40,938 nucleotides of DNA from an uncultured Silvanigrella sp. GTDB taxonomy: Bacteria > Bdellovibrionota_B > Oligoflexia > Silvanigrellales > Silvanigrellaceae. Of this stretch, positions 19,510 to 34,880 are shown one piece after another (positions within the stretch are counted from its first letter, which is position 1; every line of letters begins with the position of its first letter). The position numbers and the translations under genes were made by a program. The stretch covers positions 1 through 40,938 of the forward strand of contig CAIZJW010000011.1 in assembly GCA_903933385.1 (NCBI GenBank), written 5' to 3'. The notes under the pieces are model-generated. The model saw only the letters and a program-made list of their open reading frames with translations. It made no database searches and was not told where the DNA came from.

Positions 19510-20664
19510 TTAAGACAAGCGGTTCCGAACCATAACCGTAAGCATTTCTTTGAACAAACCTGGTTGGAGACCAAACCCTATGCGAAACCCAGATGAGAAT
19601 TGAGAGGGAAACAAAAAAGAGTCCCCAAAGGATGACAATGGAAGCAGAAATATCTCGTTTTTTCGAAGAGTTAAGAAAATATCCCGTTCTGAACTTGGAT
19701 GCCTCGAAAAAAGGCAAGAAACGAGCCCGCCACAGGGAGAAGCACCAAACCAACTCTCTTGGCTCTTTATCCACTTTTCAAAGGTCTCTTTATTCAGAAG
19801 CCACTCGCGATGAAGCGGGGCGAAAAACGAATTATTCCTTTCAAGACTCTGCAAAAACCACAGAGCTAATATCTGCGACAATGGATTCACGGTGTGTGTC
19901 AGGTAGTTTTTTTCACTCTGCATGGCGCGCAAAGTTTCAGAATCCCCCACACACCACCCAATGCGCAGACCCGGCGTTCCGGTGCATTTGATGAAACTAC
20001 CTGTGACAAAACGACCAGGCCTATAAAGGGTTTTACCGGCGTCGGGATTCAGACCACTCAGAAATCGATAGTGTTCATCACCGACAACGATACATCCCAC
20101 TGATTCGGCAGCCTCAATCAGGCAACCCATCTCAAAATCATCAAATACCAAACCCGAGGGATTATGCGGGTGATTCAAGATAAAAACATCTGGCCTCTCA
20201 GAACGCAGGAGCTCACACCAATGCTTTAAATCAGCATTCGGAATTCCGTGTTCATCCCAATGCACCGATAGGGGAAGAATTTGCGCGCCCAGTGATTTGG
20301 GGATTTCTGTCAGAAGCTGGAAAGCAGGAGTGAGAACCGCAACCTTCTTAGGCTTCAGTTGCCTCAAAAGCAGTAAAATAGCTTCGCTTGTGCCTGTGGT
20401 AATTAGAATATTTTCGAGCGATGAGCCCGGATGCAGGGATGCTACGGCAACACGAAGTTCATCCATGCCCATGTTCGGTGCATCACAGAGCATCACCTCT
20501 GCTAGAGCCTCACCTAAGCTGAAAGAAAAATCGGGCTGCAACCCAGCGAGAAACGATGCGAGGTTTTGCGAGCGATGCCCAGACTCTCCTGCGTTAAAAC
20601 GGGCTGAGAAGCGATGCTTTTCAAGCCAATCTTCCATGAGAAATTCTGAGAGGGTTGCTTTCAC
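19510..20664 (-). CDS. PLP-dependent aminotransferase, class I/II
   Basis: This 384-residue fold-type I PLP enzyme has FNAGESGH near the start, ITTGTSEAILLLL for cofactor phosphate contact (about 88-100), NHPHNPSG (164-171), GDEHYR with D196 and Y199, and the Schiff-base lysine K226 in GSFIKCTGTPGLRIGW, with the substrate-carboxylate-binding Arg expected near the C-terminus. It looks closest to the histidinol-phosphate/threonine-phosphate-decarboxylase-like or general MalY-like groups, but substrate cannot be told. The GTG start at 20664 overlaps the mqnC stop in GTGA, showing translational coupling to the menaquinone genes. That could mean a role in making or recycling a futalosine-pathway metabolite, or simple operon economy. 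The AT-to-prfB gap is 47 bp. Confidence 0.85.
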   Translation of the reverse strand: MKATLSEFLMEDWLEKHRFSARFNAGESGHRSQNLASFLAGLQPDFSFSLGEALAEVMLCDAPNMGMDELRVAVASLHPGSSLENILITTGTSEAILLLLRQLKPKKVAVLTPAFQLLTEIPKSLGAQILPLSVHWDEHGIPNADLKHWCELLRSERPDVFILNHPHNPSGLVFDDFEMGCLIEAAESVGCIVVGDEHYRFLSGLNPDAGKTLYRPGRFVTGSFIKCTGTPGLRIGWCVGDSETLRAMQSEKNYLTHTVNPLSQILALWFLQSLERNNSFFAPLHREWLLNKETFEKWIKSQESWFGASPCGGLVSCLFSRHPSSERDIFLTLRKNEIFLLPLSSFGDSFLFPSQFSSGFRIGFGLQPGLFKEMLTVMVRNRLS

Positions 20665-22010
20665 TGAACCTTGGTCTCTGGGTACTCGGCAAGAATGTTG
20701 TAGTAAGTATCGCGTTGCACAGGAACAAATCCCGAACGACGGATGAGTTCAATCATGTTATTGCGATCGAGAGTGTAGGACGTACCAGCTGCGCTCACGA
20801 CGTTCTCTTCAATCATAATAGAGCCCATATCGTTGGCACCATAATGTAAAGAAATTTGGCCTATTTTCGGACCCATCGTGACCCAACTTCCCTGAATGTT
20901 CGGAATGTTGTCCATCATAAGACGACTGACTGCCAACACACGTAAATACTCAGCGCCCGTGGTGGGCTGCATGTCAGGGTTCTTCTTCGCAAGCTCGGTA
21001 TTTTCTCCCTGGAAAGTCCAGAGGATAAAAGCGTAAAAACCATGGGTTTCATCTTGGGCTTCACGAATTCGCAAAATATGCTCAATGATGTGTTTGCGCT
21101 CTTCAAGTGCTCCGAACATCATCGTTGCCGTTGTAGGCAAATCAGCCTTGTGAGCGGTTTGCATTACCTTAATCCAGCGGTGGCTGTGACGCTTCACCGG
21201 ACTCTGCTCCAAACGAATTTCATCAGAGAGAATTTCAGCCCCAGCTCCAGGAATGGAATCGAGACCAGCAGACTTCAATCGCTCTAAAGTTTCCTCAAGA
21301 GTCAAGCGCGACACCTGCGCTATACCTTCAATCTCAATCACCGACAGCGCGTGAAGATGAATTTTATAGCGCTCTTTTATACTGCGAAAAAGATCTTCAT
21401 AATATTCGATTTTGAGGTGTGGATTCACGCCACCCTGCATCAGAGTACCAGTTCCGCCGACTTCAAGCGTTTCTTCGATCTTCTTATAAATTTCTTCTTT
21501 AGGAAGAACGTAAGAATCGTTTTCGTGTCCTCGACGATAGAAGGCGCAAAAATCGCAACCAATTCTGCAAATATTTGTGTAGTTTATGTTTCGATCGAGA
21601 AGGAACGAAACCTTTCCAGTGGGATGAAAACGCTCCTTGGCCCGAGTTGCCAACCAACCTAGTAAGTTTAAATCCCCAAAATCGAGAAGCTTTTGGCCTT
21701 GTTCAGCGCTCAGGCGAGCGCCGTGAAACGCCGTCGAGTACGCTGACTTCAATTCAGCATCTGTTGTTTTTTCAATGGCATCGAGCATTAGCGCATCATG
21801 AACTTTAGTGGGGCGTTCAGTTGCTGCAACTATGCTCTGACGGAGAGTGTCACGGGCGTTGATTTCACTGAGCAACGGCGCTTCCTGAAAGCCAGGTGCC
21901 ATCGGCAGAGTGCTTTGGTTTATTGTTTTCTCAAAATCACGCTGGGGCGTTTTCTTTTCGCAATTCAGTGCATAAGGATTTTTGTTATTGGTTATGGAAG
22001 CGTCGATCAT
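20661..22010 (-). CDS. mqnC: Cyclic dehypoxanthine futalosine synthase
   Basis: This 449-residue radical SAM enzyme closes the ring of dehypoxanthine futalosine in the futalosine route to menaquinone. The cluster motif is C148-x3-C152-x2-C155 in TNICRIGCDFCAFYR. MqnC-specific stretches follow: GTGTLMQGGVNPHL, GLDSIPGAGAEILSD, TTATMMFGALEERKH, HGFYAFILWTFQGENTEL and LHYGANDMGS. The N-terminus before the radical SAM domain has about 80 extra residues, the first 45 of which are polar and probably disordered. The start at 22010 overlaps the mqnE stop by ATGA, so the two are translationally coupled. Confidence 0.95.
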   Translation of the reverse strand: MIDASITNNKNPYALNCEKKTPQRDFEKTINQSTLPMAPGFQEAPLLSEINARDTLRQSIVAATERPTKVHDALMLDAIEKTTDAELKSAYSTAFHGARLSAEQGQKLLDFGDLNLLGWLATRAKERFHPTGKVSFLLDRNINYTNICRIGCDFCAFYRRGHENDSYVLPKEEIYKKIEETLEVGGTGTLMQGGVNPHLKIEYYEDLFRSIKERYKIHLHALSVIEIEGIAQVSRLTLEETLERLKSAGLDSIPGAGAEILSDEIRLEQSPVKRHSHRWIKVMQTAHKADLPTTATMMFGALEERKHIIEHILRIREAQDETHGFYAFILWTFQGENTELAKKNPDMQPTTGAEYLRVLAVSRLMMDNIPNIQGSWVTMGPKIGQISLHYGANDMGSIMIEENVVSAAGTSYTLDRNNMIELIRRSGFVPVQRDTYYNILAEYPETKVQ

Positions 22011-23194
22011 TGAATGATGTCCTCCGCTGGATTTTCATAACGACGGATGGGTTCATAGACGGTGGACCGCTCAACAGGAATGCGATCCGCGTCACGAATC
22101 ACTCTAAGGATTTTGCTTTTAGCCATCGCCATTCCTGCACGACTTCCAGCCATGTTGGCGATCTTTTCCTCGACAACGGTACCATCCAAATCATTGGCGC
22201 CAAAGTGCAAAGCCGTTTGTGCCACACGATCCCCAGTCATGACCCAATAGCTCTTAATATGTCGGAAGTTGTCGAGCATCAGGCGACCAATTGCGATCGT
22301 TTTGAGATCGTCGACTCCATAGGTGTGTCGAGTGATTCCCAGCTCGTTGTTTTCAGGTTGAAAAGCCAATGGAATAAAAACATTGAAGCCAGAGGTTTCA
22401 TCTTGAAGCGCTCGCAAACGCATCATGTGGTCGATACGCGCCTCAACATCTTCGATGTGACCATAAAGCATGGTGCAATTGGAGCGCAGGCCCATTCTGT
22501 GTGCCGTGCGATGAATATCCAGCCAACCATCGCCAGTCAGTTTTGTGTCGCAGATTTTTTCTCGAACGTATGGGGTGAAAATCTCAGCTCCGCCACCTGG
22601 CAAACTACCGAGACCAGCCTCACGAAGTTCTGTCAAAACCTCTGCAATGGTTTTGCGCTCTTTGCGAGCAAGCCAATCAAGTTCTACGGCTGTGAAAGCC
22701 TTCACATGAAGCTGAGGCGCAGTTTCTTTAACAGTGCGAATAATGCTCGTGTAGTTAGAAAGTTTCCAGCGAGGATGCAATCCGCCCACCATGTGTACTT
22801 CGGTTGCTCCAGATTCAGCTGCAACCCTCGCTTTATGAGCGATTTCGTCTTCAGAGTAAGCATATGCTCCCTCTTCGCCTGGCTTTCGTGAAAATGCGCA
22901 GAACTTGCATGAGAGTGCACAAATATTGGTTGGGTTGATATGTCGGTTGACGTTAAAAAAAACGTCTCGCCCGTTTTTGCGGTTATTCATTTCGTTGGCA
23001 ACCGCACCAAGCTCAACGAGATCTGGTGAATGATACAAATTCACACCATCTTCGAAACTCAATCGTTCACCGCGGAGTGCTTTACTCAATGCGGTTTGAA
23101 CTGCACCGTAAGTCACTTGAACCTGCGGATGCGTTCGTTCGCCGAGAGGTGAGGTGGTGGGTAGATGCGATGAGTTGCAAGTCACCGATTCCAT
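22007..23194 (-). CDS. mqnE: Aminofutalosine synthase
   Basis: This 395-residue radical SAM enzyme joins 3-[(1-carboxyvinyl)oxy]benzoate and SAM to make aminodeoxyfutalosine, the second step of the futalosine menaquinone pathway. The cluster motif is C92-x3-C96-x2-C99 in NICALSCKFCAFSRKPGE. Further family strings are VHMVGGLHPRW, LPGGGAEIF, TMLYGHIE, FIPLAFQPENN, and LHFGANDLDGTVVEEKI. ATG 23194 has AGGAAAGGG upstream. It heads a minus-strand unit mqnE-mqnC-aminotransferase-prfB-apt. MqnA, MqnB and MqnD are not in this window. Confidence 0.96.
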   Translation of the reverse strand: MESVTCNSSHLPTTSPLGERTHPQVQVTYGAVQTALSKALRGERLSFEDGVNLYHSPDLVELGAVANEMNNRKNGRDVFFNVNRHINPTNICALSCKFCAFSRKPGEEGAYAYSEDEIAHKARVAAESGATEVHMVGGLHPRWKLSNYTSIIRTVKETAPQLHVKAFTAVELDWLARKERKTIAEVLTELREAGLGSLPGGGAEIFTPYVREKICDTKLTGDGWLDIHRTAHRMGLRSNCTMLYGHIEDVEARIDHMMRLRALQDETSGFNVFIPLAFQPENNELGITRHTYGVDDLKTIAIGRLMLDNFRHIKSYWVMTGDRVAQTALHFGANDLDGTVVEEKIANMAGSRAGMAMAKSKILRVIRDADRIPVERSTVYEPIRRYENPAEDIIQ

Positions 23195-23365: not shown

Positions 23366-23668
23366 ATGGCAAATATTGGATTTACTGAGCTTTTAGTTAT
23401 TCTCGCTATCGCTTTGTTGCTTTTCGGCAATCGTCTTCCAAACGTTGGGAAGGCTCTGGGAGAAGGCATTCGAAACTTCAAAAAGGGCCTCGATGGCAGC
23501 GAAGATGAGAGTAAAAACGCTCAACAAACCGCCTCGCAGCAAGCGGTATCTCAGCCACAAGCTGTCAACGCACAGGCCATGCAACCCAACTCCCTGCAAA
23601 GCGCACAAAGCCAACAGCAGGCCAAGGTTGATTACGTCGATGTTGAACATCGCGATCCCAACAAATGA
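23366..23668 (+). CDS. tatA: Sec-independent protein translocase subunit TatA
   Basis: This 100-residue TatA-family protein forms the translocation element for folded proteins carrying twin-arginine signals. It has the N-terminal membrane helix ([16 protein letters not shown]), the conserved FG hinge, and the amphipathic helix [21 protein letters not shown]. The polar tail is glutamine-rich. ATG 23366 has TAGGAG upstream. TatB and TatC are not adjacent. Its stop overlaps the start of the first ArsA-like ATPase (ATGA). Confidence 0.93.
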
Positions 23669-24723
23669 CATCGTCAGCCAATCTCGCTGAACAGATACCG
23701 CAGCGATTGGTATTTTTTCTGGGCAAGGGCGGGGTGGGAAGAACCACTCTCGCAACATCCTTTGCTCAGTCGTGTGCTTTGCGTGGTGAAAAAACACTCA
23801 TTGTTCAATGGGCGCTCCAGGACTCAGTGTCCCTTTTGTTTTCTCGTCCGACCGCAGGCCATGACTCCGAACAGATCTCAAACAACCTTTGGACGATGAA
23901 TTTCTCGACCGATGAAGCGATCCGCGAGTATTTCATCGACCACCTAAAGCTCAAACTCATCTACAATTTGGTGATCGAAAACAAACACGTCCAAAGGCTG
24001 ATTCATGCTGCGCCCGGCGTGCAGGAATTGTTTTTTCTTGGACGACTCTTTTGGTTGGTTTGTCTTTCCGAAGAGATCCGCGGCACGCGCTTCGATCGTG
24101 TGATTGTCGATGCTCAGGCAACGGGCCACGGTGTCTCATTGTTCACAATTGCTCCCACTATTGCACAATTTGGCATGACAGGTCCTTTGGCCAGCGAATG
24201 CGACCGGGTTGCCAAAATGATTGCCGATCCAAAACTTGTTGGGGTCGCTCTCGTAACACTTCCAGAAGAATTGCCCGTTGAAGAGACGTTGGAATTTTTG
24301 CCTCGTTTGAGTCACGATCTTGGGCGCGATCCCAATGCAATGTTCATCAACCGCTCTATTGCTCCATTCATCGAAAAAAATCCCCTTTCCATGGATTCAA
24401 AGCACGTGATGGACATCTGGCAAAGCCATCTCAAAACGCCAGAGGCAATGCGCGCGCTTTCAGTTCTCCACCGAGATCTTTGTAAGCGCCAGCACTTCGA
24501 AGAGTTCTTGCGCAAAGAACTCAACAACCGCCGGCTGAGTATCCCAATCACATCGGTTCCGGACATCGGTTTGTCGGACCCAGAAGCGGGTGCTCCCGCC
24601 GTATTGCGTGGTGTCACTGATTGGCTCGTCGATGGTAACGACTCCGTTCTAGAGATGCATCAACAACACGCCTCGCCGAGTTGGCATTCAAACGACTTTG
24701 AAATCAGCGAGGATCAGCGTTGA
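23665..24723 (+). CDS. ArsA-family ATPase, first of a pair, P-loop lysine replaced by arginine
   Basis: This 352-residue SIMIBI-class ATPase is related to ArsA/Get3. The deviant Walker A is at residues 20-28 as GKGGVGRTT: the signature lysine (K21) that reaches across a dimer is kept, but the P-loop lysine is arginine (R26, codon AGA). The switch I motif usually reading DPAHS is not recognisable (VQWALQDS), and switch II is VDAQATGH instead of DTAPTGH. It probably binds nucleotide poorly and serves as the non-catalytic partner of the next gene product. No metal-binding cysteines typical of arsenite pumps are seen. Start overlaps tatA by 4 nt and its stop abuts the second ATPase. Confidence 0.85.
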
Positions 24724-25850
24724 TGAAAAAACAATCGTCTGAGACCTTCAAGGGTAAAAACATTCCTCGTCTTCATCTTTTTCTCGGTGCCGGTGGGGTT
24801 GGTAAAACCACACTCTCCGCTGGCTTTGCACTCGCACTCGCGCAACAAGGCCGACACGTTGGTCTCATGTCCATCGATCCGGCTAAGCGACTCCAGGGGG
24901 CACTTGGTTTAGACGAGCTGCCAGAATCGGGTGCGCAAATCGAACTTCCAAATTGCCCGGGAAGCGTTCGCGCAAGTGTTCTGCACATTGGTGAAAGCTT
25001 AAAACGCTGGGTCAATGAAGCTGGACTTTCAAAGGCTGCGCAGGAGCGTCTTTATGAAAACCAGTTATTTCGGGCTTTAGCCGAACGCCTCGCGACGGCT
25101 ACCGACACATTCGCTGCAGTGCGCATGGCAGAGTGGCCGGAACGCGAAGAAGGACTCACGGATCTTGTTGTTGACACAGCGCCTGGAATTCACGCCATCG
25201 ACTTCTTGTCGAAACCAGAAAAACTATCAGCATTTCTGGATGGCAAACTGATTGAGTGGCTGAAATGGTTCGCGCAGGAAAACAACACTCAAACAAGTTT
25301 TATCCAACGGGTTGTCAAAGGGGGCGCTCGCCGCGTTCTCGATGGATTATCGGAACTTGGTGGTCAGCGATTCATGCTTCATTTCGCTGAATTCTTGATT
25401 CTTCTTGATGAAGTGTTCGCGCGTATGATGACTCGTCTTAACTTTGCAGGACACTGGCTGCGCTCCTCTGAAACACACTGTTACGTTGTTACGTCGGTGC
25501 GTTACGATGCAGTTCAGGTGGCTTGGGAGTTGAGCCGCACTCTCAAAGGTTTGAAAATGAAGCCCGGACAAATCATTATTAACCGGGCCTTCCCAGAAGC
25601 TCTTCGCAATGATCCAGCCTTTACAGATGCATTGGAAAAGATGCGTCAACAAGAAGATGATTCATTCTTTGCAAACTATATCGATAATTTTATAATCGTT
25701 CAAAGACGGGTTCAGGAGCAGTTAGGACGCGGCGCTCAATCGGTGATCACTCTTCCGGTTGCCGAGCATCTCGACGCCCACTCAGCCTTGCGTCTCGACG
25801 ACCTAGCCTCGCTAGGCCACCGCATTTTGGAGCATTCTGGAGACCACTGA
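24723..25850 (+). CDS. ArsA-family ATPase, second of a pair, signature lysine replaced by alanine
   Basis: This 375-residue partner has Walker A at residues 22-30 as GAGGVGKTT: the P-loop lysine K28 is kept but the signature lysine is alanine (A23). Switch I (SIDPAKRLQGALG) and switch II (VVDTAPGIHAIDFL) are close to the family standard. With the preceding protein it would form a heterodimer whose single competent site uses this P-loop plus the partner's K21. A TTG at 24720 is an alternative start; the ATG at 24723 overlaps the upstream stop by one base (TGATG). The MCE permease gene follows after 2 bp, tying the pair to envelope transport, not to arsenic resistance. Confidence 0.87.
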   Translation: MKKQSSETFKGKNIPRLHLFLGAGGVGKTTLSAGFALALAQQGRHVGLMSIDPAKRLQGALGLDELPESGAQIELPNCPGSVRASVLHIGESLKRWVNEAGLSKAAQERLYENQLFRALAERLATATDTFAAVRMAEWPEREEGLTDLVVDTAPGIHAIDFLSKPEKLSAFLDGKLIEWLKWFAQENNTQTSFIQRVVKGGARRVLDGLSELGGQRFMLHFAEFLILLDEVFARMMTRLNFAGHWLRSSETHCYVVTSVRYDAVQVAWELSRTLKGLKMKPGQIIINRAFPEALRNDPAFTDALEKMRQQEDDSFFANYIDNFIIVQRRVQEQLGRGAQSVITLPVAEHLDAHSALRLDDLASLGHRILEHSGDH

Positions 25851-25852
25851 CC

Positions 25853-26641
25853 ATGATGGAAGTTGCCCTCAGTGGACTCGAGTCGCTTGGCGGATTGGTG
25901 CGTGGACAAATTATTGGATTGGGTCGCTTCACTTTACTTATCCGCGAGCTGTTTTTTTGGATGGTTCGTCGGCCGTTTCGTATCCAGCTCATTTTCAAAC
26001 AATTTGAATTTGTCGGAAACAAATCTCTCTCAATTGTGACACTTTCGTCACTCTTCACTGGCGCCGTACTTGGCTTGCAAATTGGCAAGATCTTCGGAAT
26101 TTTCAAAGCCGAAGGTCTCATGGGCGCAGCCACTGGGAAGGCTTTGGCATTGGAGCTCGCTCCAGTGATGTGCGGTTTCATCGTAACCGGGCGTGCCGGA
26201 GCCGCCATGGCTGCAGAAATTGCCACAATGCGGGTGAACGAACAACTTGATGCCATGGAGGCCATGGGAGTCTCACCCGTAAGTTACCTTATCGTCCCAC
26301 GCGTTATTGCAAGCACCCTCATGATGCCCCTGCTTTCAGCTATTTTTCTCAGCCTTGGACTCGTGGGTTGTTACATTATCGGACTTGTCATGTTTAGAGT
26401 CGATACGTCGGTTTTCGTTGCCCAATTGCAATGGTTGGTCTGGGTCTCGGATATACAGAAGGGGATGACAAAAGCTCTTGTTTTTGGATTTATACTTTCA
26501 ACTATTGCTTGCTATAAAGGTTTTCATGCGCGAGGCGGAGCAAAAGGCGTTGGAGAGGCAACGACTCAAGCAGTGGTTGCAAGTCTCTTGACCATCCTAA
26601 TTGTCGACTTTTTCATCTCCCTCGTTCAAATGAAGGGCTGA
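25853..26641 (+). CDS. mlaE: MlaE/YrbE-type ABC transporter permease (MCE lipid transport)
   Basis: This 262-residue inner-membrane permease belongs to the MlaE family, which moves phospholipids between inner and outer membrane. It has an N-terminal amphipathic helix and about five membrane segments, with conserved stretches SLSIVTLSSLFTGAVLGLQ, ALALELAPVMCGFIVTGRAGAAMAAEI, TMRVNEQLDAMEAMGVSPVSYL (the family EQ loop) and GVGEATTQAVVAS near the end. Length fits. ATG 25853 has GGAG upstream, with a second ATG directly following. It is followed after 3 bp by the ATPase gene. Confidence 0.95.
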   Translation: MMEVALSGLESLGGLVRGQIIGLGRFTLLIRELFFWMVRRPFRIQLIFKQFEFVGNKSLSIVTLSSLFTGAVLGLQIGKIFGIFKAEGLMGAATGKALALELAPVMCGFIVTGRAGAAMAAEIATMRVNEQLDAMEAMGVSPVSYLIVPRVIASTLMMPLLSAIFLSLGLVGCYIIGLVMFRVDTSVFVAQLQWLVWVSDIQKGMTKALVFGFILSTIACYKGFHARGGAKGVGEATTQAVVASLLTILIVDFFISLVQMKG

Positions 26642-26644
26642 GGC

Positions 26645-27448
26645 ATGGCCATCCCTCCAGGGCAGAGCCAATCCAAAACTCACACAATTCCTGTTGTGTG
26701 TTTTAAAAATGTTCGAAAAACGTTTGGCAACCAACAGGTTCTACGCGGGTTAAGCTTCGAACTTCAACCCGGAGAAATCAGCTTTATCATCGGACGCTCC
26801 GGTGAAGGAAAATCAGTCACCATAAAGCACATCATTGGAGTCCTTCACCCAGACGTTGGCGAGATCTTCATTAATGGTGAATTGCTGACGAGGGCACCTG
26901 AAACGAGTTGGATTCGGGCGCGTAAAAATATGGGGCTGCTTTTTCAAGATGGAGCCCTGTTCGATAGTATGACTGTTGGTGAAAACGTGGCCTTCCCAAT
27001 TCGCGAATTCGAGCAGCTCACACCAAAAGAACTGTCTTTACGTGTCGAAAGCCTGCTGGATTTGGTAGGGCTCCCTGGTTATGGTTTAGCACGAGTACCA
27101 GACCTGTCGATTGGCGAACGCAAACGGGTTGGCCTAGCGCGCGCATTATCCCTAAATCCCTCGTTGCTTTTGTATGATGAGCCAACAACCGGAATGGATC
27201 CTCTCATTTCTGAATTGATCGACTCTCTCATTTTGGAAATGCAGAAAAAAATCCCAGGCCTTTCAAGCGTCGTGATAAGTCACGACATTCAATCGGTCTT
27301 GCGCTTAGCAGATCGCATTTTTTTCCTGCACGAAGGAAAAATGTACGCCACAGGAACCCCCACCGAATTTAGAGCAAACACCGACCCAATCATTCAACAG
27401 TTCATCACCGGTTCGCTCAAAGGCCCCTTGGGACAGCCCATTGCCTAA
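26645..27448 (+). CDS. mlaF: MlaF-type ABC transporter ATPase (MCE lipid transport)
   Basis: This 267-residue ATPase powers the MCE transporter. Motifs: Walker A GRSGEGKSV, Q-loop FQDGALFDSMTVGENVAFP (typical of MlaF), signature LSIGERKRVGLARAL, Walker B LLLYDEPTTGMDP, and H-loop VVISHDIQSV. The signature departs from LSGGQ at the third and fifth positions (LSIGE). E. coli MlaF has a related variant LSGGM, so activity is still expected. ATG 26645 follows GAAGGGCTGAGGC. The MCE gene begins 125 bp later, after a palindrome. Confidence 0.95.
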   Translation: MAIPPGQSQSKTHTIPVVCFKNVRKTFGNQQVLRGLSFELQPGEISFIIGRSGEGKSVTIKHIIGVLHPDVGEIFINGELLTRAPETSWIRARKNMGLLFQDGALFDSMTVGENVAFPIREFEQLTPKELSLRVESLLDLVGLPGYGLARVPDLSIGERKRVGLARALSLNPSLLLYDEPTTGMDPLISELIDSLILEMQKKIPGLSSVVISHDIQSVLRLADRIFFLHEGKMYATGTPTEFRANTDPIIQQFITGSLKGPLGQPIA

Positions 27449-27473: not shown

Positions 27474-27573
27474 TGAAATTGTTACCTAGTAAAATTCAAG
27501 CGCAAGAAAATCATTCCGATGCTACAATGGGCTAAACCTTGTGTCTTTGCTCTATAGCATTGAAAGAGGGAAC

Positions 27574-29118
27574 GTGTTCGAACGCACCATTACGACAGAA
27601 TTGAAGGTGGGTATTTTCACAGTTGCAGCATTGGCTGCCGTGGGGACGCTCGTGCTCACTCTGGAAGGAAATCCCTTCACATCACGCGCACAGAAATTCA
27701 ACACGGTTTTACAAAACGTAGGTGGCGTCGGACCTCGCACACAAGTGCGAACCAGTGGTGTGCAAGTGGGAGAAGTAGAATCAATTGACATTCTACCCAA
27801 AGGCGCAAAGGTTAACTTCCGCGTCAATGGAACCATCAAGATACCAAAGGGTTCATATATCGAACTTCGTTCTCGCGGCATTCTTGGTGACGTGTATTTG
27901 GAAATCGTCCGCAATGAGGAAAGCAAAGAAGAGCTAGAGTCTGGCGCTCAGATTCCTCAAATGAAGGAATTCAACGATATGGGAACTCTGATGAGTTCTC
28001 TTGGAAGTATTGCTCAGGATCTCCAAACCGTTAGCAGAACACTTGCAAAAGTCTTCGGAACTGGCGATGGACAATCAACCCTGCAGAGCATCGTCTCAAA
28101 TGTAGAAAAGATCACAGCCGAGGCTCGTGACATCGTTGCCGGCCAGAAAGAAAATATCTCACTGACACTCGAAGCTTTGCGGGAATCCGTAACCCGGGTG
28201 AACACAATGCTCGGCAGACATGATGGTCGAATAGACGAGATCATGTTGGCGGTTGCGGATGCCAGTAAAGATATGAAAATATTCAGCGGCGAGCTCAAAA
28301 AAATTATGACCGGTGAAAACAAACACCGCGTTGAAAACATTATTGCTGCGCTCGATGATTCAATGCAAAGCGTGCGCCAGGCGACAAGTAAAGTGCAATT
28401 GATTGTCGACAAAGTAGAAAAAGGCGAAGGTACAATTGGCCAACTTATTGCCAAAGATGACACTGCCAACGAACTCAAAATGACTCTAAAAAGCGTCCAA
28501 GATTTACTCAAACCTGCAGCAAAACTGCGTATTGAAGTCGATTACAAAGGCGAACTCAGAAGTTCGGAAACTCAATATGTGGGCGACGCCGGAAACCACT
28601 TCAACCTCCGTTTAGCCACGCGACCCGATCGTTATTATCTGCTTGGTGTCTCCGACTCACCACAGAGTCGAAGAATCAGTGAAGTTCGCAAAACAACTAC
28701 AAAAGACTCAACGGGTGCAGAAATCACCCGAGAGGAAACCACCTCATCGGAAGATCGCACGCGGATCAAATACAACGTTCAGTTCGCCAAACGATTTGAC
28801 AATCTTGGAGTTCGATTCGGACTGTTCGAAAGTTACGCAGGCGTCGCCGGAGACCTCTATTTATTCTCAGATAAGTTGAGCACTTCTATAGAAGTTTTCC
28901 AATTTGGCGACGACCCTTCGGAAGCAGAAAATCGCTCCAAGGGTAAAGCTCGAGTCAAGGGTTATGCTAATTTATTTGTGACTCCAAATATCTACCTGAC
29001 AGGTGGAGCCGACAACATCGGCCGTTCTCCCAAGCCCATCCAGTTTTTCGGTGCTGGCCTCCGCTTTTCCGATGATGATCTCAAAGCAGTCATCGGTGCG
29101 GCAGCATTGGCAAAATAG
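27574..29118 (+). CDS. mlaD: MlaD-type MCE protein with beta-rich C-terminal domain
   Basis: This protein of about 514 residues is anchored by one N-terminal membrane helix (VGIFTVAALAAVGTLVLTL) and has one MCE domain at about residues 40-115 (VGGVGPRTQVRTSGVQVGEV, then SYIELRSRGILGDVYLEIV). A long helical region (about 130-320) probably forms a hexameric coiled-coil tube. The last ~190 residues are beta-like with aromatic strands (HFNLRLATRPDRYYLLGVSD, FAKRFDNLGVRFGLFES, YLTGGADNIG, IQFFGAGLRFS) and resemble an outer-membrane or periplasmic beta domain. One chain could then span inner membrane, periplasm and outer membrane. I prefer GTG 27574 (AGAGGG upstream); an in-frame GTG at 27541 lacks a ribosome site. 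MCE proteins bind and shuttle lipids. Confidence 0.9.
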   Translation: MFERTITTELKVGIFTVAALAAVGTLVLTLEGNPFTSRAQKFNTVLQNVGGVGPRTQVRTSGVQVGEVESIDILPKGAKVNFRVNGTIKIPKGSYIELRSRGILGDVYLEIVRNEESKEELESGAQIPQMKEFNDMGTLMSSLGSIAQDLQTVSRTLAKVFGTGDGQSTLQSIVSNVEKITAEARDIVAGQKENISLTLEALRESVTRVNTMLGRHDGRIDEIMLAVADASKDMKIFSGELKKIMTGENKHRVENIIAALDDSMQSVRQATSKVQLIVDKVEKGEGTIGQLIAKDDTANELKMTLKSVQDLLKPAAKLRIEVDYKGELRSSETQYVGDAGNHFNLRLATRPDRYYLLGVSDSPQSRRISEVRKTTTKDSTGAEITREETTSSEDRTRIKYNVQFAKRFDNLGVRFGLFESYAGVAGDLYLFSDKLSTSIEVFQFGDDPSEAENRSKGKARVKGYANLFVTPNIYLTGGADNIGRSPKPIQFFGAGLRFSDDDLKAVIGAAALAK

Positions 29119-29911: not shown

Positions 29912-31567
29912 ATGAAACATAGACTATTTTTAACAATCATTCTTCTCGGCACAACACCCTGTATGGGCTTGGCTTCTCAAGCGGCAATGCCTAAGCAATC
30001 TGCGCAGATCAAAAAAAATGCAAAAGAGTTACAATTGCTCGATAAAGCTTGGGCCTTGCGAAAAGAAACGGTTTCCAAAAAACTCGCTTTCACGGAGAAA
30101 CTGCTCAAAGATTTTGAAAATCAGAATCATACCGCAGAAAACAGATCGCGCCTTTTGTTGGCCACAGCGCTTGTTTTGCTCAGCGAAGAAAATACTCAAA
30201 TGGCCTCTGCAGAGCTTATTTCTGAAGCAGCCAAAATTGCTCCCCTAAAACTCAACCGAACTGCCGCTCAATTCATTTGGAATGACATCTTGAAGCGAAT
30301 TCCAAGTGAGACGAGTTCAGGATTAAACGCTTTAACCGATGTTGCAGCCGCAATTGCATCTGACAACCAAAGCGAAATCAATGAGTCGCATACTTATTTT
30401 CTGGCTCTATCGAGGAATCAACAGGGAAGCGCAAAAGACGCGCTCAGTTTATTTGCCAAAATTGAGACCTCCTCAAAATTTTATCGCCAGGCTAAATTGC
30501 AGGAAGGTCTCATACACGCGCGCGACGGAAACATCGCTCGCGCCAAAGTGTCACTGGAAACTGTTCTTTCTTTGGAGAAAACTGACGCTGAAAAGAAAGC
30601 TGCCTTCGGCGATCAATTCATTATTGATCTCAAGGAAAGAGCTGTTCTGAACCTCGCACGCCTGCACTTTGAAAGCAAAGAATTCAAAGAATCAATCTCC
30701 CTCTATCGCAGCATCGACTCTCAAAGTCCGCTCTTTTACGAAAGCCTGAGTGAGCAAGGGTGGGCCTTCTTCATGGCCGGGCATCCGAACCGCGCACTTG
30801 GCGTTGGATACGGCGCAACAAGTCCGCACTACAACCAACAATTTCAGCCAGATCAATATTTCCTCAACGCATCGGTTAACTATTGGCTTTGTGATTTCCC
30901 GGCCGCGCGTAAAAGCATTCAATCTTTTGTGATGCACACGCGCGATGATGGTCAATTACTCCGCCGCTGGGGCGACTCAGCATCTCCAAAGGCTCGAGAT
31001 ACAGATTCTGAAAGACTGCAAAAAGCCTTTAAAATTGTGGAAGGGTTGGCTCAAGGAGTGACTCATTCCAACAACCTTCTTGGTCCCCGCAGTTTGCAGA
31101 CTCTAGGCCGGAAACGTTCCCTCATTAATGGCATCGATGAATTAGCCACACTGCGTGCCAACCGCATGAAACTTCTTGGCAGCGCTTGGCCGTTGCAGAG
31201 TAAAAAGACTCTGATTGATGCCCTGCTTAACCTGGAGAAAAAAGAACAAAGAAGAATAGGCAAGCTGGCTTTGTCTATCATCGATGCAATGCGAAGCGAC
31301 TATGAGCGTTCTCTCGCACAAATGCGTCTTATCCATCTCGAAATTATGACTGCCGAAAAAGACAAGTTGATGAAATCAGGAAGAAGCGCAGAGGGTCAAC
31401 AATTTACGGGCAGTGAGCAAGAATTTCTCGAGAGTGCCGAGGGCTCGGCGCGCATCTGGGAAGACAACAAACGAGAGTTTTGGAAAGACGAACTCGACAG
31501 CTTCGTGTTCAACAAGAAATCGGAATGCAACACTGATGAGGAGGAGAGAAAACATGCAGTCAAATAG
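29912..31567 (+). CDS. Exported TPR-repeat protein
   Basis: This 551-residue protein has a signal peptide (MKHRLFLTIILLGTTP...) and a helical-repeat body. TPR-like pairs are visible around residues 165-215 (LSLFAKIETSSKFYRQAKLQ, EGLIHARDGNIARAKVSLE), 235-290 (AVLNLARLHFESKEFKESISLYRSI), and 265-330. It probably works in the periplasm as a scaffold. The neighbours (an outer-membrane barrel before, a large TPR protein after) match the arrangement of the Myxococcus gltC-gltA/B genes in kind, if not surely in descent. ATG 29912 has GGGAG upstream. Its end overlaps the next gene start by 14 bp. Confidence 0.72.
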   Translation: MKHRLFLTIILLGTTPCMGLASQAAMPKQSAQIKKNAKELQLLDKAWALRKETVSKKLAFTEKLLKDFENQNHTAENRSRLLLATALVLLSEENTQMASAELISEAAKIAPLKLNRTAAQFIWNDILKRIPSETSSGLNALTDVAAAIASDNQSEINESHTYFLALSRNQQGSAKDALSLFAKIETSSKFYRQAKLQEGLIHARDGNIARAKVSLETVLSLEKTDAEKKAAFGDQFIIDLKERAVLNLARLHFESKEFKESISLYRSIDSQSPLFYESLSEQGWAFFMAGHPNRALGVGYGATSPHYNQQFQPDQYFLNASVNYWLCDFPAARKSIQSFVMHTRDDGQLLRRWGDSASPKARDTDSERLQKAFKIVEGLAQGVTHSNNLLGPRSLQTLGRKRSLINGIDELATLRANRMKLLGSAWPLQSKKTLIDALLNLEKKEQRRIGKLALSIIDAMRSDYERSLAQMRLIHLEIMTAEKDKLMKSGRSAEGQQFTGSEQEFLESAEGSARIWEDNKREFWKDELDSFVFNKKSECNTDEEERKHAVK

Positions 31568-34500
31568 ACGATTTATATGGTCCGCAGGGGTTCTAGCTCT
31601 GCTTGGCGCGACACTAGAGGAAGCTCACGCCAAGCAAGCAGCAAACAGAATCCAGGCCGCCCTTGAGAGCCAAGCCACACTCAGTTCAGCTCGTGATCCG
31701 CGAGCAGAACTGAACAACTGGCAGGGAGTCAATGGAGAACGTAACAAGCAATCGAAGACTCTGGCCATTCAAAGCTCGGGACTCTCGTCACTCGAATCTT
31801 TGAATCAGCAAACCAAGCAGTTCTCCAGTTCACTTCGCCTAAAGGAAGACGTAGGCGAAGGCCGCTTCGAGGCTCCTGGTCTTTTCGAATTCTCAACTTT
31901 CGTTGCTCAAACACAGAATGGCGCATCGGCGACTGGAAATAAGGAGGAGGATATTGAGAAACTTCGAATAACCACCATTGCGAGTATCGAAAAAATCATC
32001 CGCCAACCTGGGTCGGCTTCGCAGCGAGTTGAACTTCTGTTGCGCTTGGCTGAACTTCATGCCGAACGCCACATCTACTTCCTCCAACGCGAGATGACCA
32101 CATACGAAAATGCCTATGAAAAGTGGCAAAAGAATCATCGCAGTGGCGTTGAACCGAAGTTCGTGCAAAATCAATCTTTACAATCGATCAACACCGCAAC
32201 ACAAATTCTGCGCACCCTTGTGAGTCAGTATCCAAACCATGCAAAGACGCCGGATGCTCTCTACCAGCTTGGCTTTTTACTCACAGAAATGAAGAGTGAC
32301 AGCGCTACTCTCTATTTTCAGCGTCTTATTGAACGCTTTCCAAAATCCAAATTCATCCCCGATGCCCATCTAGCATTAGGTGAATTTCATTTCAGCCGTA
32401 ACAAATTCAATGACGCAATGGTCCATTATCAAAAAGTTCTCCAGGACCGGCAAAACAGAAGCTATCCCTACGCCGTCTACAAGCTTGGCTGGACCTTCTA
32501 TAACATGCGAGGCAGCGAAGAAGAGACGATAAAGAACCTGCAAAAGTCGCTGGTCGCGTTTAAGTTGCTTGTCAAATTTGCTCAAGAAGCCCCCAAGGAG
32601 AGAAAACTTGGCCTTCTGCGCAAAGACGCCCTGCGCGACATGGTTCTTGTCTATGCCGATCTCGGCGACATTAGCGAAGCGCAAAGCTATTTCAAATCAA
32701 TGAACGAACCCGAACTCTATGCGACACTGCTAGAGCGACTCGCTTGGCTGCATGCGGAGGCTGGCAGGAATCGTGAATCTGCAGAAATCTATTCACGCCT
32801 TGTAGAAGAATTTCCACTCAGTTCAAAGAACCCGCAGTTCATGGTGCGCCTTGCAGCACTCCATGAAAAAGATCAACGACGAGAAATGCTCATAAACGCT
32901 CTTGAGCGCGCCTCAGAGATGATTCAGCGGGGCTCGAAATGGTCAGTGGCACAAAAAAAAGAACAAGACCGCGACAATGCGAGCGATGCCTTGTTGAAGG
33001 AAACTGGTCTCTGGAGTCTGCGGTTTCACGCCGAATTCCAAAAAACGAAAAACAAGAAAACAGCACAAGAGAGTCTTCAACTCTATGATCTCACCCTCAA
33101 ACACCATGCCGAATCAGCTGCATCCTACACAACACTGTTCAACCGTGCTCAGCTGCTCACTGCGCTCGGTGAACACGACAAAGCAATTGATGGCTACTTG
33201 AAAGCTGCACAACTCGACAAAAAACTATCGCTCAAACGAAATGAAAGCAAAGTGGGACTTGAAAACGCGATGGCCGAAAGCGAGATCCTGCTGCAAGAGC
33301 GCGGCGCAGTAACTCAAAAAGTTGCTGTCCTACAGCCTATTGAATCTCGCCTGATAAGAATCATTGATCTCCACTCTGCCATGTTTCCCAAAGACCCAGA
33401 CCGACTCGCGCACTTGCACAGAGCTGCCGTTTTGCTTTTTCAAGCAAACCAAATACCACAAGCAAACCAGCGCTGGATGAGCATGGCCAAAGAAAATCCA
33501 AACAGTGTTCATGTGAGCGAAGGTCTCAGATTGGTCGTTAAACGTTCATTTGACGCTTCCGATTGGATTCGTGCAGGTCAAGAAACGAAACAGTTTCTGG
33601 CTATTCCTGGAATCAACGCTGCTGCAGTCGGTGCGCAGCTTTCAAAGCTGCAACGAGTGGCGCATTTCCAACAAGGACTCGTGCTCGAAAAATCGGGTCG
33701 ATATTCTGAAGCTGCACAGATCTTTATCGACTTTCAAAAGCAATTTCCATCCGATCCTGATGCTTCCAAAGCACTGGTAAATGCTGCAAACAACCAATTC
33801 AAAAACAACCGGCCAGATAACGCCCTTGCCACCCTAGAACGCTTCGTCGTTCAATACCCCCAGTCAGAATACAAATCCAAAGCGCTCGACCTTATGTCTG
33901 CAACCGCAGAAGGAATGGGCCGCTACAGCGATGCTGCGAAAGCTCTCGAACAGCTTGCAGCTAGAAACACTAATCTTGAAACATCTGCTCAAGATCTCCA
34001 TCGTGCAGCAAAGTTTCGCTTGGCTGAAGGCAACCCGACACAGGCGATCGCAAATCTCCAATCAGCGTTACCAAATTTCAAACGCAGCAATGACTTATGC
34101 GAGGCCTACAAAACCGTCTTTGATGCGCAAAACCAAATCCGCTCCACACAAGTTTTGGAGACTGCAAAAGTTGCAACACAGCGCTGCCAAACAGCTTCTC
34201 CCGAGTGGGGTATTTACTTTGCGGGCATGGGTGCACGGATAAGCATGAACAGTCATCAGGCAAGCGAAGCTTCAAGACTCTCAACGCTAGCTCTTTCACG
34301 CGGCCGCATCCTGAAAGGCAAACTACAGAGTCCATTTGCGTTTGAAGGTTTACGTCTTGCTGGAGTTGTTCAACTGGAACTTCTCGAAACTCAAAGCCGC
34401 ACACTGATTGGAAAGAGAATTGTAAATTCAAATTCAATTCAGGTTGAATTTGGTCGAATCAAAAATGAAGCTCATTCCTTAGCCCAACAGTATGCACAAC

Positions 34501-34880
34501 TCGCACAAGTTGGACAGGCAGAAACTTCTGTGGGGGCTTTGTATAGAGTTGCTGAAATCCAGGAATCACTTGCAAATATGCTCGTACAATCTCCTAACCC
34601 GAGTGGTGTTTCGGCTACAGAAATTGAAACATTCCGCACTCGAATAGAAAAAATTGCATTACCTCTGCAAGAAGAAGCTACCCAGCTGTATACCCAGGCA
34701 CTTGAAAAAGCCAATGAGGCCGAAATCATCTCCCCGTATACAATTCTTTTGCAAGAAAAATTGTCATCAGCGCGTCCTGGTGAATTCAGAAAAGTCATTG
34801 AAGTGATGCCAAAACCTTCATATATGGCGCACGAACTTCCGATAAATAAGGAGACGAAAGGAATTGTTCAAGAGGAATAG
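31554..34880 (+). CDS. Large exported TPR-repeat protein (GltD/AgmU-like)
   Basis: This protein of about 1108 residues has a signal peptide (MQSNRRFIWSAGVLALLGATLEEAHA) and at least ten TPR-like repeats. These include ALYQLGFLLTEMKSDSATLY..FPKSKF, HLALGEFHFSRNKFNDAMVHYQKVL, LERLAWLHAEAGRNRESAEIYSRLVEEFPLS, and FQQGLVLEKSGRYSEAAQIF..FPSDPDA. The first ~110 residues are low-complexity. I chose ATG 31554 because GAGGAG lies upstream and a signal peptide follows. Size, TPR content and a following TPR lipoprotein recall GltD-GltE of the Myxococcus gliding complex (inference). It likely forms a periplasmic scaffold linking inner- and outer-membrane parts. Confidence 0.75.
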   Translation: MQSNRRFIWSAGVLALLGATLEEAHAKQAANRIQAALESQATLSSARDPRAELNNWQGVNGERNKQSKTLAIQSSGLSSLESLNQQTKQFSSSLRLKEDVGEGRFEAPGLFEFSTFVAQTQNGASATGNKEEDIEKLRITTIASIEKIIRQPGSASQRVELLLRLAELHAERHIYFLQREMTTYENAYEKWQKNHRSGVEPKFVQNQSLQSINTATQILRTLVSQYPNHAKTPDALYQLGFLLTEMKSDSATLYFQRLIERFPKSKFIPDAHLALGEFHFSRNKFNDAMVHYQKVLQDRQNRSYPYAVYKLGWTFYNMRGSEEETIKNLQKSLVAFKLLVKFAQEAPKERKLGLLRKDALRDMVLVYADLGDISEAQSYFKSMNEPELYATLLERLAWLHAEAGRNRESAEIYSRLVEEFPLSSKNPQFMVRLAALHEKDQRREMLINALERASEMIQRGSKWSVAQKKEQDRDNASDALLKETGLWSLRFHAEFQKTKNKKTAQESLQLYDLTLKHHAESAASYTTLFNRAQLLTALGEHDKAIDGYLKAAQLDKKLSLKRNESKVGLENAMAESEILLQERGAVTQKVAVLQPIESRLIRIIDLHSAMFPKDPDRLAHLHRAAVLLFQANQIPQANQRWMSMAKENPNSVHVSEGLRLVVKRSFDASDWIRAGQETKQFLAIPGINAAAVGAQLSKLQRVAHFQQGLVLEKSGRYSEAAQIFIDFQKQFPSDPDASKALVNAANNQFKNNRPDNALATLERFVVQYPQSEYKSKALDLMSATAEGMGRYSDAAKALEQLAARNTNLETSAQDLHRAAKFRLAEGNPTQAIANLQSALPNFKRSNDLCEAYKTVFDAQNQIRSTQVLETAKVATQRCQTASPEWGIYFAGMGARISMNSHQASEASRLSTLALSRGRILKGKLQSPFAFEGLRLAGVVQLELLETQSRTLIGKRIVNSNSIQVEFGRIKNEAHSLAQQYAQLAQVGQAETSVGALYRVAEIQESLANMLVQSPNPSGVSATEIETFRTRIEKIALPLQEEATQLYTQALEKANEAEIISPYTILLQEKLSSARPGEFRKVIEVMPKPSYMAHELPINKETKGIVQEE

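Follow-up and report, generated by a model that had tools for sequence, protein, structure and literature searches.

The closest described counterparts of the gene pair considered here are bagA and bagB of Mycobacterium tuberculosis, whose products Rv3679 and Rv3680 have been crystallised together (PDB 6BS3, 6BS4 and 6BS5; Hu et al. 2019, doi 10.1128/JB.00159-19, cited through PMC10597346). PMC10597346 reports a link of bagAB to glycerol and nitric oxide tolerance, and no connection of the mycobacterial genes to a tatA/MCE operon was seen in the literature consulted. What the intradimer lysine and the switch-I aspartate do in Get3 has been described (PMC10248533). The same source describes NosGet3d of Nostoc, the product of one gene, which keeps the signature lysine, has glutamate in place of the switch-I aspartate and carries an alpha-crystallin domain. 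With arginine in its P-loop, NosGet3d is an active ATPase, its activity having been measured (PMC10248533).

The window, by which we mean the whole 40,938-nucleotide stretch analysed, comes from an uncultured Silvanigrella sp. and contains a block of six genes on the forward strand, tatA-bagA-bagB-mlaE-mlaF-mlaD. The first, at 23366-23668, encodes the twin-arginine translocase protein TatA (PF02416, 58.6 bits; TIGR01411 above cut-off), and its 3' end shares four bases with the start of bagA. Both bagA (23665-24723, 352 aa; ATPase 1) and bagB (24723-25850, 375 aa counted from the ATG at 24723; ATPase 2) encode Get3/ArsA-fold ATPases that score above the PF02374 cut-off. The two reading frames share one base, and an alternative TTG start for bagB at 24720 is located one codon upstream of the ATG. 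Three MCE-system genes follow: mlaE for the lipid transporter permease (25853-26641; PF02405, 240.8 bits; TIGR00056 above cut-off), mlaF for the ABC ATPase (26645-27448; PF00005, with MlaF as top NCBIfam match but under the equivalog cut-off) and mlaD for an MCE-domain protein (27541-29118; PF02470, 55.9 bits). Genome searches gave the TatA of the block as the best TatA of the genome, placed tatC at a separate site away from the block, and found no MCE protein other than MlaD; the MCE gene of the block is the only one found in genomes G000, G010, G011 and G021.

Adjoining the block and divergently transcribed are the genes for MqnC and MqnE of the futalosine menaquinone pathway (20661-23194), both above their NCBIfam cut-offs, and their position beside tatA-bagAB is kept in near relatives (L038-L040). 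A gene for a 1155-aa TPR protein (31413-34880), which passes the cut-off of TIGR02795 with a YbgF-like match, is located 3' of the MCE genes and of a possible outer-membrane-barrel gene.

The two deviant Walker A motifs given for this locus in a preliminary description, GKGGVGRTT in ATPase 1 and GAGGVGKTT in ATPase 2, are present in the window at 23722-23748 and 24786-24812 of the forward strand, respectively. BagA retains the signature lysine (Lys21, codon AAG) and carries arginine at the P-loop lysine position (Arg26, codon AGA at 23740-23742), while BagB has alanine at the signature position (Ala23, codon GCC at 24789-24791) and retains the P-loop lysine (Lys28). Switch I and switch II had been described as normal only in ATPase 2, which agrees with the sequence for switch I but not for switch II. 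Switch I is lost in BagA, which reads VQWALQ where ArsA has STDPAS, the aspartate being replaced by Ala50, and is intact in BagB (IDPAKR, Asp52-Pro53). Switch II of BagA, however, keeps both its aspartate and the TGH triplet (DAQATGHG, Asp149), whereas that of BagB retains DTAP and has lost TGH (DTAPGIHA, Asp151). No CxxC zinc motif was found in the translated BagA or BagB of the window.

Sequence and profile searches both assign the pair to the BagAB kind. The best PDB match of BagA is Rv3679 (6bs3_A, E 6e-18) and that of BagB is Rv3680 (6bs3_B, E 6e-27), with BagA and BagB, respectively, as top NCBIfam matches. Single-chain AF2 models gave a pLDDT of 83.7 for BagA and 79.0 for BagB. In fold comparisons 6bs3_A ranked first for BagA (Z 25.9 and rmsd 3.8 over 307 residues), on a par with Get3 3zq6 (Z 25.8), and 6bs3_B was tied first for BagB (Z 26.1 over 332 residues, rmsd 4.3). 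Because the scores fall far below the NCBIfam equivalog cut-offs (89.9 bits vs 400 for BagA and 130.4 vs 521 for BagB), the window pair is taken as a member of the wider BagAB kind and not as the mycobacterial equivalog; a pair from Oligoflexales with lysine in the BagA P-loop is likewise under both cut-offs.

A residue census covered 70 distinct sequences of BagA and 72 of BagB, M. tuberculosis being left out. These were drawn from 58 genomes of the phylum of the window, 198 genomes of the phylum to which a Leptospiraceae locus belongs (10 matches), 146 genomes of a Myxococcota-like phylum (136 matches) and named contigs from Silvanigrellales, Leptospiraceae and one delta-proteobacterium. A cultured member of the Silvanigrellales, Fluviispira multicolorata (L041), is in the set. 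The signature lysine is present in 70/70 BagA and 0/72 BagB, the latter having Ala, Ser, Gly or Pro instead. The switch-I aspartate shows the reverse distribution: all 72 BagB have it and none of the 70 BagA does, the position being occupied by Ala, Ser, Asn, Thr or Val (and by Glu in M. tuberculosis BagA). Lysine is found in the P-loop of every BagB (72/72). The switch-II aspartate is intact in all BagA of the census and TGH in nearly all, and residue 27 is Thr or Ser throughout. By this residue pattern each pair of the census has one complete composite site, made of the BagB core and the BagA lysine.

The P-loop lysine of BagA is the position that varies by lineage. It is arginine in 26/26 members of one lineage, hereafter R-type, and lysine (K-type) in the 44 others as well as in M. 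tuberculosis. R-type BagA occurs in Silvanigrellales (the group of the window), in Leptospirales and in two Myxococcota-like genomes; this range of phyla is a minimum, from a sample that does not extend to Bdellovibrio proper. A tree built with the P-loop column masked places all R-type BagA in one clade (99/100 support) with a single K/R change, which rules out independent changes in separate lineages. The only outgroup row in this tree forms a very long branch, and neither the direction of the K/R change nor horizontal transfer between Silvanigrellales and Leptospirales is readable from it. The BagB partners of R-type BagA also form one clade in the BagB tree (100/100). Arg26 is encoded by six different codons among the 26 sequences (AGA in 10, AGG in 1, CGN in 15); the residue is therefore neither a chance occurrence nor a sequencing error and has been maintained for long. 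An error at the GCC codon of BagB is excluded in the same way by the absence of lysine from all 72 BagB. Within the R clade the P-loop glycines, Asp149 and the base-pocket residue Asn229 of BagA are invariant, and Trp49, in the former switch I, is fixed, while only 1 of 44 other BagA has it.

A second and different weakening of the loop is seen in Oligoflexales, where the motif GKGGIGK[ST] is continued in 17/19 BagA by Leu, Val or Cys at the position where others have Thr (most of L023-L029, L031-L037 and L069-L083). Two genomes, G062 and G326, each carry a second, K-type BagA locus beside the R-type one, and in these genomes the R- and K-type BagA are distinct paralogues.

These distributions modify the preliminary picture of two complementary lesions. 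Loss of the signature lysine is a trait of BagB across the family, whereas the K-to-R change is limited to one BagA clade; the former holds in 72/72 BagB and the latter in 26/70 BagA, and the two lesions are no matched pair. Judged by its residues, the site that the K-to-R change affects, that of BagA, is already incomplete in all pairs examined.

We regard it as likely that the window pair is a BagAB-type heterodimer in which the BagB site hydrolyses nucleotide and the BagA site binds it, with little or no hydrolysis. The hydrolytic site would be that of BagB, formed with Lys28 of its P-loop, Asp52 of switch I and Asp151 of switch II, and Lys21 of BagA would reach across the interface to supply the signature lysine that BagB is missing, a trans position suggested by what is known of the family. 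The reciprocal BagA site would have no switch-I aspartate, no lysine from BagB, and arginine for the P-loop lysine. It would still bind nucleotide through its intact glycines, Thr27, Asp149 and the base-pocket Asn229, and might hold the dimer together and sense or lock the nucleotide. One ATP per dimer would then be turned over at the BagB site, leading to opening and closing of the Get3 type. The BagA site of R-type pairs is read as nucleotide-binding because the glycines, Asp149 and Asn229 are invariant and residue 27 varies only between Thr and Ser, and as probably not or hardly hydrolysing, which would leave these pairs with hydrolysis at one site.

The K-to-R change in the P-loop is by itself no proof of a dead site, because Nostoc Get3d hydrolyses ATP with arginine there and glutamate in switch I (PMC10248533). 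The half-site claim rests instead on the missing switch-I aspartate of BagA and the missing trans lysine, both apparent from the residues of every pair examined. The earlier claim that only the site of ATPase 2, completed by K21 of ATPase 1, can work gains from the composite-site logic found in every pair examined, from the gene fusion described below and from the M. tuberculosis complex. Its treatment of the P-loop change as the lesion that inactivates ATPase 1 fares less well given the active Nostoc enzyme, and the absent switch-I aspartate is the better argument.

The Nostoc precedent also bears on a heterodimer with two working sites, in which Arg26 would replace the lysine and the BagA site would hydrolyse too, leaving the pair asymmetric in rate and not half-dead. 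The measurable ATPase activity of Nostoc Get3d with P-loop Arg and switch-I Glu (PMC10248533) speaks for such an arrangement, as do the intact switch-II aspartate of all BagA and the nearly universal TGH. We nevertheless consider it unlikely, since BagA has Ala, Ser, Asn, Thr or Val in place of the switch-I aspartate, none of the 72 BagB offers a signature lysine, and Nostoc Get3d differs on exactly these points, having kept the signature lysine together with Glu in switch I. The BagA site might stay active if another group stands in for the switch-I aspartate. At the opposite extreme, BagA could be a pure pseudo-ATPase that holds no nucleotide, its P-loop doing no more than presenting Lys21 and Arg26 serving as structural filler in the phosphate site. 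That Arg26 and Trp49 are fixed in the R clade and absent or nearly absent elsewhere would fit a pocket remodelled in this way, and the Oligoflexales BagA, with GKGGIGK[ST][LVC], have weakened the same loop by other means. However, the glycines, Thr/Ser27, Asp149 and Asn229 conserved in the R clade exceed what the presentation of one lysine needs, and we hold the pseudo-ATPase to be improbable as well.

Indirect support for joint action of the two proteins comes from G326, one of the two Myxococcota-like genomes with R-type BagA, in which R-type BagA and BagB are naturally fused in one 703-aa frame (L105:1453-3561). In the fusion GKGGVGRST stands at about residue 23 and GAGGVGKTT at about residue 370, and each half matches over its full length. 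Such a fusion is strong, if indirect, evidence for a 1:1 BagA-BagB complex. For the organism of the window, the M. tuberculosis complex and the G326 fusion point to a heterodimer of BagA and BagB. Two genomes could be cited for the contrary proposal that BagA and BagB are separate homodimers or monomers which merely share an operon. The reduced genome G014, from the same order as the window (1.2 Mb, 74% complete), keeps tatA next to an R-type bagA (L164:5028-5864), yet no BagB match was found genome-wide at this completeness, and no bagB or mla genes adjoin bagA; in G024 the sole bagB found sits on another contig. Separate proteins are nonetheless very improbable in view of the complementary residue loss in every pair, the co-segregating BagA and BagB trees, the natural fusion and the joint structure of the M. 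tuberculosis proteins. G014 is a possible case of a solo BagA, and because it has an R-type BagA and no detectable BagB, obligate pairing may not be universal.

The coupling of bagAB to tatA and MCE genes noted in the preliminary description is real and conserved. The order tatA-bagA-bagB-mlaE, continued by mlaF and mlaD where the contig permits, is found in 12/14 Silvanigrellales genomes with bagA, the two exceptions being G004, in which tatA was not detected, and G014, which is without bagB. Of the 31 K-type loci in this phylum, 21 show bagA-bagB-mlaE-mlaF-mlaD, many of them with tatA, and the order holds in most complete K-type loci; the remaining ones represent additional copies, lie at the end of a contig or have been rearranged. 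An MCE association as a trait of R-type pairs can be dismissed, as K-type relatives have MCE genes too and the R-type loci of Leptospirales are without them. The MCE link therefore goes with the phylum of the window and not with the arginine.

In Leptospirales the 5' neighbour of R-type bagAB is a gene for a conserved protein of about 480 aa that belongs to no Pfam family and matches Mg-chelatase-like ATPases only weakly, and several loci have an AlgH-family gene downstream (L134:9424-10887 and L134:6678-7283, with counterparts in L135-L141). Some Oligoflexales carry a second bagAB pair outside the tatA/mla block (L168, L173 and L175, in G020, G028 and G021, respectively).

Through the tatA-bagAB-mlaEFD block, which is kept across the phylum, BagAB has a concrete genetic setting that connects it with the transport of envelope lipids, and it may plausibly take part in envelope biogenesis. 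Its client would probably be a protein of a membrane or of the envelope that is handled jointly with the MCE and Tat components encoded in the operon, which is the weakest step of the favoured one-site model. A more specific proposal, put forward only tentatively and in our view doubtful, is that R-type BagAB is an ATPase specialised for work at one site, with nucleotide permanently held in BagA, and that it is a chaperone dedicated to targeting or assembling the MCE lipid transporter (with TatA) which the six-gene block encodes across most of the phylum.

Several known systems share parts of this design. ArsA of E. coli and L. ferriphilum resembles BagAB in that two nucleotide domains cooperate, and its two-domain layout is shared by the G326 fusion. 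However, both halves of ArsA keep GKGGVGKT and the DPA of switch I, giving two full sites in one chain, whereas the window encodes two chains, each with an altered Walker A. The ArsA model TIGR04291 gives 43.4 bits for BagA and 49.4 for BagB, under an equivalog cut-off of 650; as this model is far from reached and the annotated neighbours include no ars genes, an arsenic function of the pair was rejected. The KGGVGR-motif variant AAA ATPase family (NF047398) was also rejected, for although the P-loop letters KGGVGR match, the score is 26 bits vs a cut-off of 90. Get3/TRC40, the chaperone of tail-anchored proteins, has in common with the window proteins the fold (Z about 24-26), the deviant Walker A and the cross-dimer lysine, but is a homodimer with two full sites, and the CxxC zinc motif of its dimer interface is missing from both window proteins; BagA and BagB score 75.6 and 66.0 bits, respectively, with TIGR00345, below its cut-off of 135. 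NosGet3d (All4481, PDB 3IGF/8EGK) is like the window BagA in having the P-loop Lys-to-Arg replacement within a deviant Walker A.

The greatest likeness is to M. tuberculosis BagAB, which also consists of two adjacent, unequal Get3/ArsA-fold ATPases. Its BagB has the GAGGVGKTT, the switch-I DPAKR and the switch-II DTxP of the window BagB, and its BagA has the signature lysine and lacks the switch-I aspartate. Unlike the window BagA, the mycobacterial protein has lysine in its P-loop (GKGGTGKST) and Glu in place of the switch-I aspartate, and identity between the two pairs is just 22-24%. The asymmetric BagAB heterodimer is thus an already known class, to which the present locus and its relatives add a clade with fixed arginine, a natural fusion and a block of six genes. 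The design with one complete site spans all pairs examined and is no quirk of a single pair, and the forms now seen, from full P-loop through weakened P-loop and fixed arginine to fused pair, offer a natural series for testing a Get3-fold machine that runs on one ATP.
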